Both the position numbers and the translations under genes were made by a program. Below are positions 46,277 to 48,812 of a stretch of 64,000 bases of DNA, piece by piece. This DNA is from Pseudorhodoferax aquiterrae. Lineage in GTDB: Bacteria; Pseudomonadota; Gammaproteobacteria; Burkholderiales; Burkholderiaceae_C. The stretch's first letter is position 1. The number at the start of each line of letters is the position of its first letter. Location: the NCBI RefSeq assembly GCF_014652235.1, contig NZ_BMYK01000001.1:330982-394981 (forward strand). The letters run 5' to 3'. The notes under the pieces were generated by a model. It did not search any database. It saw only the letters and a list, made by a program, of their open reading frames with translations, and had not been told where the DNA came from.

Positions 46277-47008
46277 TCAGCCGCCCGGCAGTTCGCTGAA
46301 CAGACGTCCCCAGCCCTGGACGCGGCGCGTGTCCACGCCGGCCAGACGCAGCGACTTCCAGACCGCCGTGGCGATGGTGTCGTAGACGGGCATGCCCAGC
46401 TCGGTCTCCAGGGCCGGCACCAGCTGCGCGGCGCGCAGGTTGGTGCAGAAGGTGGTGATGCACTGCGGACCGGCGGCCGCCAGCGCGCGCGCCATGGCCT
46501 CGATCTGCGCGGGCGTGACCTCGGAGAACTCGAAGTTGACCTGCTTGTCCAGGTGGCGCTCGGCCACGCAGTCGAAGCCGCTGGCGCGGTAGTTGGCCAC
46601 GATGCGCTGCTGCACGTCGTCCAGGTAGGGCGAGGCCAGGCCGAAGCGCGTGCGGCCCGACAGCTGCATGGCCTCGTTGAGCGCCAGCACCGAGGTGCAG
46701 GCCGGGATGCCGGTCTCTTCGGTGATGCGCGCGCACAGGGCCTCGTCGGTCTGGAAGCCCAGCCAGCCCGAGGAGGTGCCGTTCCAGGCGATCACGTCCA
46801 CGCGCGCGTCGGCCAGCAGCCGCGCCGCCTGCAGGATAGGCTCCAGGTCGAACTGGCCCAGCGCCTGGGCACGCAGCGAGATCTCGGTCACGCGAAAGCG
46901 CGCGAAATGCGCCGACACCTCGGGCAGCCCCGCGAGCATGGCGGCCGTGAGCGGCTCCAGCGCGGTGTTGGACGAGGGCGTCAGCATGCCCAGCAATACT
47001 CGTTTCAT
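46277..47008 (-). CDS. Asp/Glu racemase / maleate isomerase / arylmalonate decarboxylase family protein
   Basis: The 243-residue protein MKRVLLGMLTPSSNTALEPL is of the maleate isomerase/arylmalonate decarboxylase group. The first family Cys region reads IAWNGTSSGW near residue 75 (no Cys, but Thr-Ser as in arylmalonate decarboxylase), and the second is kept, TTFCTNLRAA near 193. A single-thiol mechanism such as decarboxylation or cis-trans isomerisation is therefore more likely than two-base racemisation. The 642-bp palindrome ends 24 bp before its ATG, so its promoter must lie in or beyond that element. Confidence 0.86.
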   Translation of the reverse strand: MKRVLLGMLTPSSNTALEPLTAAMLAGLPEVSAHFARFRVTEISLRAQALGQFDLEPILQAARLLADARVDVIAWNGTSSGWLGFQTDEALCARITEETGIPACTSVLALNEAMQLSGRTRFGLASPYLDDVQQRIVANYRASGFDCVAERHLDKQVNFEFSEVTPAQIEAMARALAAAGPQCITTFCTNLRAAQLVPALETELGMPVYDTIATAVWKSLRLAGVDTRRVQGWGRLFSELPGG

Positions 47009-47277
47009 TTCAGCGATCCGTGGTGTCGTGTGGCCGAGCGTAGCGATGGCCCGTGTGTGACCCCGCTCCCGGGGCCCCTGTGCCCACGCCGAGGAGCACA
47101 GTGGCCTGGGCGGCGCGGGGAACCTCGCGCTTCAACATCTGACTCATCGTGCTTGTTTGAGCGAAGTGAACGCAGTGAACGAAGCGAGTTGCACGATGCG
47201 CCCAGGCCGCGAGCACCGCAGGTTGCCCGGAGCGCCAGCGGAGGGTCGTGGGCACCGGGGTCGCCTTCTCTTTGGTT

Positions 47278-47305
47278 ACTTTCTCTTGGCGAGACAAGAG
47301 AAAGT
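47278..47305. repeat. inner hairpin of the left arm (11-bp stem)
   Basis: ACTTTCTCTTG, loop GCGAGA, CAAGAGAAAGT is a perfect stem at the inner end of the left arm of the palindrome. It corresponds in position and sequence to the hairpin at 47404-47436 in the right arm. Confidence 0.75.
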
Positions 47306-47403
47306 GACTGCACTGCCGGGGGCATATCCCGGCCCCTGGTGGTCGTGCATGCGCAGCGCGTTCTATTGGGCACAGAGGCGGGGATTTCGCCCCCGCACGG
47401 CGA

Positions 47404-47436
47404 CCTACTTTCTTGGCTATCGCCCAAGAAAGTAGG
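47404..47436. repeat. inner hairpin of the right arm (13-bp stem)
   Basis: CCTACTTTCTTGG, loop of 7, CCAAGAAAGTAGG is a perfect 13-bp stem at the inner end of the right arm. The 98 bp between the two hairpins (47306-47403) are not shared between the arms and hold no recognised feature. Confidence 0.75.
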
Positions 47437-47762
47437 CAAAGAAGGCGACCCCGGTGCCCCTGTCCCTCCGCTGCGCTCCGGGCAACCTGCGGTGCTCGCG
47501 CCATGGGCTGCATTGCACAACTCGCACCGTTCACTGCGTTCACTCAGCTCGAACAAGTGCAATGAGTCAGTCAACGAAGCGCAAGGTGCCCTTGCGCAGC
47601 CCATGGCGCTGCGCTCCTCGGCAGGGGCACAGGGGAACAAGCGGGGACCATTCGGGCCATCGCTGCGCTCGGCCTGGCGTTCGGGCCGTCGCTTCGCTCG
47701 GCCGACCAACGGCCTGCAGGACCGCGATACAGGCCGTGCAGTGAGAACGTGCAAACGCGGCC

Positions 47763-48812
47763 TCACACCTTGACTTCGCGGTTGAAGCGGTCGATGTACT
47801 CGCCACGGCGCGGGTTGAGCTTGGCCCAGTCCACACCGTTCATGGCTTCGATCTCTGCCACGTTCTTCGCGTAGGCCTGCAGGCCGGGGCTGAACTGTGC
47901 CTTGCTGCTGACCGGCGCGACGAAGTAGGGCGCGGCCGCCATCTGGGTCTGCACCTCGGGGCTCAGCGCGGCGTTGATGTAGGCGGCAGCCAGGTCGGGG
48001 TTCTTGGTGTTCTTGACGATGTGCATCACGCTCTTGATGTGGATCCAGCCCGTCTCGGGCTTGGCCAGCGCCACCGGCACCCCCTTGCCCTGCAGGTCGC
48101 CCACGTTGTTGTTGTAGTGCACGGAGATGTCGATCTGGCCCTGCTGGAACAGCGTGGCCAGCGCGCCGGGGTTGCTGGCCACGGCGCTCACGTTGGGCAG
48201 CAGCTTCTTGACGAACTGGAAGGCGGGCTCGAGGTTCTCCTCGCTGCCGCCGTTCAGGCGCGCGATTTCCACCATCCAGGCCGACATCAGCGTGGAGCCC
48301 ATGCCGGCCAGCCCCACGCGGCCCTTGTACTCGGGCTTGAGCAGGTCGTTCCAGTTCTTGGGCGGGTTCTTGATCTTCTCGGTGTTGTAGGCGATGCCGA
48401 TGATCTGCCCCGACACGAACACGCCCAGGCCGCGCGGGTCCACGAGCTTGGGCGGCACGTCCTTGAGGTTGGGCATCTTGTCCACCGGGATCTTCTCGAA
48501 GATGTCCTGCGACAGCGCGGCCAGGTAGGGCCCTTCGTCCAGGATCACCACGTCGTAGGGCGGGTTGGCCTTGGAGGCGACGATCTTGGAGACCGTGTCC
48601 ACCGCCAGCGAGGAGACCAGGCTGGTCGAGGCCCCGGTGGCCTTGGCGAAGGCCGGCAACAGGATGCTGCGGTGCGCCGACTCCCAGGCGCCCGGGTAGG
48701 TGGTGGCCGAGATGGTCTTGGACTGGGCGTGCGCCAGGCTGGCGTGCAGCGGCAGTTGGGCGGCACCGAAACCGGCGGCGGCCTGCAGCAGCGTGCGGCG
48801 GGACAGGGACAT
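47763..48812 (-). CDS. spermidine/putrescine-type ABC transporter substrate-binding protein (PotD-like)
   Basis: The 349-residue protein from ATG 48812 (AGGAG upstream) has a twin-arginine-type signal MSLSRRTLLQAAAGFGAAQL and a type II binding fold of the PotD/iron(III)-binding class: ISATTYPGAWESAHRSILLP, YDVVILDEGPYLAAL, VFVSGQIIGIAYNTEKIKNP and the WNDLLKPEYKGRVGLAGMGS segment. It diverges from the matching ATPase and permease genes at 49102-51914, and together they form one importer. The ligand is unknown; polyamine-type systems also carry opines and other amines. Confidence 0.92.
   Translation of the reverse strand: MSLSRRTLLQAAAGFGAAQLPLHASLAHAQSKTISATTYPGAWESAHRSILLPAFAKATGASTSLVSSLAVDTVSKIVASKANPPYDVVILDEGPYLAALSQDIFEKIPVDKMPNLKDVPPKLVDPRGLGVFVSGQIIGIAYNTEKIKNPPKNWNDLLKPEYKGRVGLAGMGSTLMSAWMVEIARLNGGSEENLEPAFQFVKKLLPNVSAVASNPGALATLFQQGQIDISVHYNNNVGDLQGKGVPVALAKPETGWIHIKSVMHIVKNTKNPDLAAAYINAALSPEVQTQMAAAPYFVAPVSSKAQFSPGLQAYAKNVAEIEAMNGVDWAKLNPRRGEYIDRFNREVKV

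Follow-up and report, generated by a model that had tools for sequence, protein, structure and literature searches.

A palindromic repeat at tight operon junctions in Pseudorhodoferax and the open frame that spans it

Several described families of bacterial repeats offer points of comparison with the element discussed here. As portrayed in PMC10969869, the Rickettsia palindromic elements (RPEs) are palindromes of ~150 bp that exist in many copies, have a frame free of stops and are tolerated within translated sequence, with nearly half of the reported ones lying in-frame within genes and a conserved peptide being encoded. The MITEs (Correia, Chunjie, ERIC) are short repeats with inverted termini that are often intergenic and come without a transposase (a description taken in part from PMC10969869), and Chunjie is cited in that source as a MITE inserted in an operon. 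In the outline given in PMC2817692, REP and BIME sequences are inverted pairs of hairpin units at extragenic sites. The Betaproteobacterial repeat element (BRE) of the Comamonadaceae is summarized in PMC3110155 as a sequence of ~90 bp that is usually intergenic, sometimes lies within coding sequences and occurs in tandem too.

A sequence-only reading of a 64,000-nucleotide stretch of Pseudorhodoferax aquiterrae DNA (contig NZ_BMYK01000001.1, positions 330,982 to 394,981; this whole stretch is the window referred to below) had drawn attention to a large palindrome between two genes. Its observation is confirmed, since an inverted-repeat search and shuffled folds identify a non-chance palindrome of ~0.65 kb at 47032-47703, and its interpretation is partly supported. 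Like the RPEs, as far as the account cited above describes them, this is a palindrome in many copies with a stop-free sense frame (open in 30 of the 30 gap-free co-directional copies), but the element is ~640 bp long, its frame is a separate intergenic one with coupling at both ends, and no peptide is conserved. It shares with the MITEs a short repeat with inverted termini and the existence of relatives whose sites are without the element, whereas it differs from them in that no target-site duplication was detected, in its mostly single orientation between co-directional genes and in the open frame that is kept. REP and BIME sequences, which occur within operons, resemble the element in being extragenic inverted pairs of hairpin units; unlike them, the element has units of ~275-340 bp, is present in tens of copies and has no unit beside the one match to a REP-type transposase in the genome. 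With BRE, in the description available, it has in common that it is a mostly intergenic repeat of the Comamonadaceae, and it is set apart from that ~90 bp element by description rather than by sequence. No paper was recognizable, by its title and the opening of its abstract, as describing this element.

Anatomy of the element and its junction in the window

The features of the element and its neighbours, listed by coordinates in the window, are as follows.

47763..48812, minus strand: upstream gene in order of transcription, extracellular solute-binding protein SBP_bac_6/8 (Pfam)
47005..47766, minus strand: bridge open reading frame of 253 codons, GTG start and TGA stop, with an open counterpart in 30/30 gap-free co-directional copies
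46277..47008, minus strand: downstream gene, arylmalonate decarboxylase / Asp-Glu racemase family (Pfam)
47404..47674, minus strand: R arm (unit positions 1 to 275 on the minus strand), first by transcription order; from inverted repeats and arm typing across copies
47404..47436, unstranded: inner hairpin of the R arm, 13 bp, perfect; from inverted repeats
47309..47403, unstranded: centre, 95 bp; arm spacing elsewhere is roughly 95 or 114 bp
47275..47308, unstranded: inner hairpin of the L arm, 14-nt arms, 93% paired; from inverted repeats
47032..47308, plus strand: L arm (unit positions 1 to ~275 and inner hairpin), second by transcription order; from inverted repeats, L being distinct from the R type across copies
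47680..47703, minus strand: extra copy of the outer end, 22-24 bp (GGCCGAGCG..GGCC), 92% identity with 47651-47674
47118-47199/47510-47591, 47075-47116/47594-47635 and 47200-47235/47473-47508: inverted-repeat blocks, from the inverted-repeat search
47236-47269/47440-47473 and 47032-47053/47653-47674: further inverted-repeat blocks, from the same search

The inverted-repeat blocks, together with the hairpins at 47275-47308 and 47404-47436, bear out the proposal of two head-to-head units, and the proposed duplication of the outer terminus is evident in the second copy at 47680-47703. Terminal inverted repeats are present (22-nt ends, 95% complementary), and 48 of the 51 places in the same genome that carry the outer-end motif with at most one mismatch lie inside BLAST matches to the element. 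The minus strand, which is the transcribed one, folds with an energy of -514 kcal/mol (z -39.8), a value matched by none of 20 shuffles. The linkers at this element are 23 and 59 nt long, and the start codon at 47008 (minus strand) lies 23 nt from the element edge (24 bp in the sequence-only reading).

The earlier statement that no gene is encoded is misleading and needs revision, as a 253-codon frame on the minus strand spans the element and bridges both flanking genes: its GTG start overlaps the stop of the upstream gene (GTGA), and its TGA stop overlaps the start of the downstream racemase-like gene (ATGA). The weight given to this frame comes from the comparison with other copies, its own listing being mechanical only. 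No match to the bridge frame was found in Pfam or NCBIfam, and Rfam covariance models gave no match in the element stretch and the window or in eight loci of relatives. A suggestion that the element carries promoter or termination signals was not borne out, and such a role is rejected, as a scan of 46950-47850 found no sigma-70-like promoter; terminator-like sites are absent from the transcribed strand there, and the two seen in this interval, where 0.6 would be expected, are both on the plus strand.

All four relatives that have the downstream gene lack the element at this locus, so the existence of element-free sites, as used to recognize a MITE, is observed here, with one of the four holding a different insert. 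The junction without the element reads TGATG in two of them (G001 and G005) and TGAgccgATG in a third (G002), and in the fourth (G003) another repeat, of 179 nt, is inserted instead.

Copies, mobility and gene context

A search for further copies, proposed in the sequence-only reading, found many in the same genome and some in each of the six genomes of the genus that were searched, so the refuting condition set in that reading, that other copies be absent everywhere, does not hold. With 40 of 130 candidates scored, BLAST gives at least 52 matches in the host genome. These fall at about 24 places, some of which are contig-end pieces, and the matches outnumber the places because a palindrome matches both strands. 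Contigs C14, C18, C34, C43, C46, C53, C67 and C68 of genome G000 begin or end within copies. Across the bacterial family, at least 144 of 299 genomes and at least 77 of 141 genera match part of the element (two candidates scored per genome). The arm-core pattern occurs in at least 111 stretches of named species genomes, and among the 80 matches listed, a few of which are named to a higher rank only, the genera are Rhodoferax, Variovorax, Polaromonas, Pseudorhodoferax, Ottowia, Xylophilus, Xenophilus, Acidovorax and Diaphorobacter, all of which we take to be Comamonadaceae. Phages gave no match to the element, and two plasmid records, from Variovorax and Comamonas, did.

Two-armed copies in the genus have an L-type arm facing an R-type arm, and arms of the same type are generally more alike across copies than L and R are within one copy; an extra L piece is present in one divergent copy of genome G004 and in one gapped copy (L078). 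In an alignment of 24 copies the termini are conserved and the flanks diverge immediately. ‘Extended’ copies with repeated arm parts were considered and taken for scaffold gaps, because X appears in the frame translations of L074, L076, L078 and L084, which corresponds to N in the assembly. In several scaffolds of relatives, N inside copies mimics duplicated arms. A comparison of five further loci shows that 2 of 6, 5 of 5, 3 of 4, 4 of 5 and 5 of 6 closely matching genomes have the element (one of the last being a fragment), and at one of these loci the element-free junction in G004 is a plain, non-overlapping one (TAA, 10 nt, ATG).

The abundance of copies makes a mobile origin for this repeated element plausible, and this part of the earlier suggestion of a non-autonomous mobile element stands; the target-site duplication that was sought was not detected, as similarity at the junctions of 33 loci is not above that of shuffled pairs (p 0.98 before the stop, 0.09 after). 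A target-site duplication that spans the stop-start junction, which could have explained the coupling at both ends, is rejected on the same data. A REP-type transposase is likewise rejected as the mobilizer, because the only PF01797 match in the host genome has no unit within its 3,276-base locus. No gene lies between the element ends among the arm-typed loci of the genus, which are a non-exhaustive set.

In the genus, 59 distinct copies or pieces were examined, of which 44 have both neighbours called and 15 are without a flank; these calls come from our own codon-model gene finder rather than from curated annotation, so starts may be off, and for the window gene a later ATG was chosen. Among the 44, 39 share one orientation and have co-directional genes on either side, three are co-directional in the opposite orientation, all in the divergent genome G004, and two, which represent one locus in two species, lie between divergent genes.

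A coupled frame that conserves no peptide

The stop-free frame recurs in other copies of the genus. Two-armed copies are wholly open in the R-to-L sense in 36 of 42 cases, compared with 9 of 42 on the other strand. When the 40 co-directional copies are read in their own direction of transcription, the 30 that are N-free are all open (5 of 30 in antisense), and the 10 that contain N comprise six open and four not open. At the locus between divergent genes, no frame is open across the complete copy (L032), and the truncated orthologous copy (L063) is open. Grouping by downstream gene gives 18 of 18 loci with gap-free two-armed copies that are open, one of them via a truncated copy.

Baseline openness is not small in this material: when alignment columns were mixed among 28 of the 30 gap-free copies (leaving out L059, which is truncated, and L040, which has the other orientation), 1152 of 3000 mixtures were open in sense (38%) and 457 of 3000 in antisense (15%), against an observed 28 of 28 in sense. 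Because sense openness so exceeds this null and the antisense count of 5 of 30 is near it, openness in the transcribed sense looks to be held copy by copy, and that in antisense does not. The relatedness of the copies weakens the column-mixing null, so the 18 loci are the safer figure, and common ancestry means that the counts are not independent. Among 19 indel blocks, 17 differ by lengths that are not multiples of three.

The frame also has coupling signals at both ends. There are 38 copies in the majority orientation, of which 35 are open; 33 of the 34 frames for which a start was found begin within -4 to +7 nt of where the upstream stop ends, and 32 of 35 close within -17 to +10 nt of the downstream start. 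Both conditions hold for 32 of 36 fully open frames and for 2 of 78 other frames, a contrast for which the Fisher P is optimistic because these windows (start -4 to +7, stop -17 to +10) were set after the spread had been viewed. In addition, the sequence CTGAnATG is found at 18 of 40 ATG starts that adjoin an element, compared with 7 of 318 others. Because both the stop of the upstream gene and a start for the downstream one fall outside the element, there is no in-frame fusion within a host gene.

What is read across the palindrome varies. In 34 frames, the R core was typed as a in 24 and b in 10, and the L core as a in 20, b in 12 and both in 2, by peptide markers that were picked after the frame translations had been viewed. 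Orthologous copies at one locus can be read in different frames, and for 39.7% of aligned site pairs the reading phase differs. The rates of difference at the three codon positions are almost flat in the element (0.108, 0.109, 0.096), and in a neighbouring gene, for one species pair, they are 0.021, 0.008 and 0.074. The use of different frames and the near equality of codon positions show that openness and coupling are conserved and the peptide is not.

Other repeats bridge junctions in this genus in a similar manner. A second repeat of ~180 bp, unlike the arms, and a third, palindromic one were found at these places.

L140:1310-1490, L155:1316-1500, L058:9992-10178, L070:15180-15375 and L081:4772-4957: second repeat, in gaps between co-directional genes
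L171:1806-2201: third repeat, palindromic, at an orthologous operon junction in G002, with an open bridge and TGAcATG at both ends (1 of 1 open)

The second repeat showed no BLAST similarity to the arms at the two loci compared (L140 and L155), and it is the 179-nt insert at the window locus of G003. In the fetched loci of six genomes, all five of its occurrences are between co-directional genes with one strand sense, two of the five being the same gene pair, by sequence, in two species. In all five, a frame starts at or beside the upstream stop and continues without a stop codon until it is at most 15 nt from the downstream start, or past it; for example, the frame in L058 ends with TAG 12 nt before an ATG, and that in L081 extends a few codons into the next gene. 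More than one frame is used for these bridges.

At 35 of 42 loci in other genera the units are arranged minus then plus, with hairpins outside and outer ends inside, and at seven of 42 the units are on one strand only. The former arrangement, opposite to that in the genus (L098, L100, L105, L123 and others), looks as if circularly permuted. None of the 38 loci with both neighbours called (L099 and L126 have one neighbour only) is between divergent genes. The 34 of 40 loci that could be tabulated, which omit L099, L115, L117, L118, L126 and L134 because of a contig end, a single unit or unclear neighbours, comprise 21 co-directional and 13 convergent ones. Co-directional loci are open in sense in 14 of 21 cases and in antisense in 5 of 21 (antisense counts being read from the table by eye), and of the 13 convergent loci four are open on one strand and six on the other. 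Coupling at both ends, judged by the same windows, is seen at three of the 21 co-directional loci, so the tight bridge belongs to the genus, or to tight junctions, rather than to the whole family.

In 24 compact cores from other genera, picked from 62 representatives and not including the window's own arms, 14 of 25 predicted pairs have changes on both sides, and by cell there are 81 both-sided changes, 5 one-sided changes and 23 that are broken or gapped. In L187, L120, L183, L206 and L266, the stems of the compact cores have been rewritten from one copy to the next and contain very few G-U pairs; these loci have no Rfam match. So few G-U intermediates suggest that these stems may be maintained at the DNA level.

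Proposed translated bridges and alternative explanations

Untranslated RNA within an operon exposes Rho sites and thereby leads to polarity, and overlapping stop and start codons permit re-initiation. We consider it probable that the palindrome is of mobile origin and has been kept as a translated bridge that avoids polarity. The repeats, their orientation, the open frame with its coupling signals, the indifference to frame and the element-free sites are shown by the data; translation of the frame, polarity as the reason for it and arrival through a kind of transposition are what we infer. The element is a member of a repeat family that is present across the host's bacterial family and that, in this genus, takes the form of two inverted units placed mostly at tight junctions within operons. 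Ribosomes that end the upstream gene would restart at a start codon that overlaps or adjoins its stop, read through the entire palindrome for some 230-260 codons, and terminate at the downstream gene's start codon or next to it. Such translation would be expected to keep the giant hairpin unformed, to deny Rho untranslated RNA and to maintain the coupling of the downstream gene. The peptide would be a by-product, and selection would act on the absence of stops and on correct coupling at both ends. In the simplest account, repeats that land in tight junctions persist if, or after, they are turned into translated bridges.

The same frames might instead belong to an ordinary, functionless MITE-like non-autonomous element, with other insertions having been purged and openness resulting from high G+C and common descent. 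Its many copies, its inverted termini and the relatives without it fit this explanation, as do the scarcity of stops, which raises baseline openness, and the fact that bridging is not common in other genera; we nevertheless regard it as unlikely, since sense openness of 28 of 28 exceeds the 38% of the column-mixing null while antisense openness stays near its own null of 15%, coupling at both ends occurs in one frame, two dissimilar repeats behave alike, and neither a target-site duplication (33 loci) nor, in the host genome, a linked transposase was found. A true protein-coding family, with a product of ~250 residues and its own function, would account for a frame that lies open between co-directional genes, with start and stop signals that overlap or adjoin theirs, but it is strongly disfavoured and very improbable, given that the same DNA is read in different frames, with 39.7% of site pairs out of phase, that codon positions differ almost equally and that Pfam and NCBIfam gave no match.

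Two further explanations give the fold itself a role. In a translation-sensing attenuator, the bridge would be translated in good conditions, and stalled ribosomes would let the palindrome fold or Rho act, so that downstream expression falls. The very stable fold and the coupling signals could serve such a device, yet we hold it to be quite improbable, as the frame varies and so offers no conserved peptide or codon run, the few identified flanking genes are of differing kinds, and 46950-47850 holds no terminator-like site on the transcribed strand. There is a very slim chance indeed that the element is an untranslated structured RNA or an mRNA 3'-end or processing element (an RNase III site or a stabilizer), an idea consistent with the covarying stems of the compact core in other genera (14 of 25 pairs) and with the lack of divergent neighbours at the 38 loci there. 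An open and coupled frame would be needless for such an RNA, the 81 both-sided as opposed to 5 one-sided changes make the upkeep of a DNA hairpin at least as likely, and Rfam was negative.

The translated-bridge explanation may extend beyond this one element. We would give even chances to the proposal that, in this genus, a number of dissimilar repeats survive at tight junctions of operons as frame-indifferent translated bridges, with unbroken translation being selected and no peptide, which would mould non-coding repeats into genes without protein function. If this is true, selection for translational continuity in operons would act apart from selection on proteins, and at many loci at once; the copies would be natural test material for the extent of translation needed against Rho; a possible birth route for new coupled genes would exist; and among the ‘hypothetical proteins’ annotated between the genes of an operon, some may be bridges that have no function themselves.

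Two minor observations concern particular copies. One long run of same-strand genes that includes a contractile-sheath gene holds several copies ~5 kb apart, in corresponding positions in two genomes (L056:6785-17648 and L070:6803-17754); a tRNA association of clustered copies was considered and rejected, none being found in 10 loci. In addition, an Rfam search of four copy loci identified a cobalamin riboswitch in one only, near the copy (L073:14384-14609).
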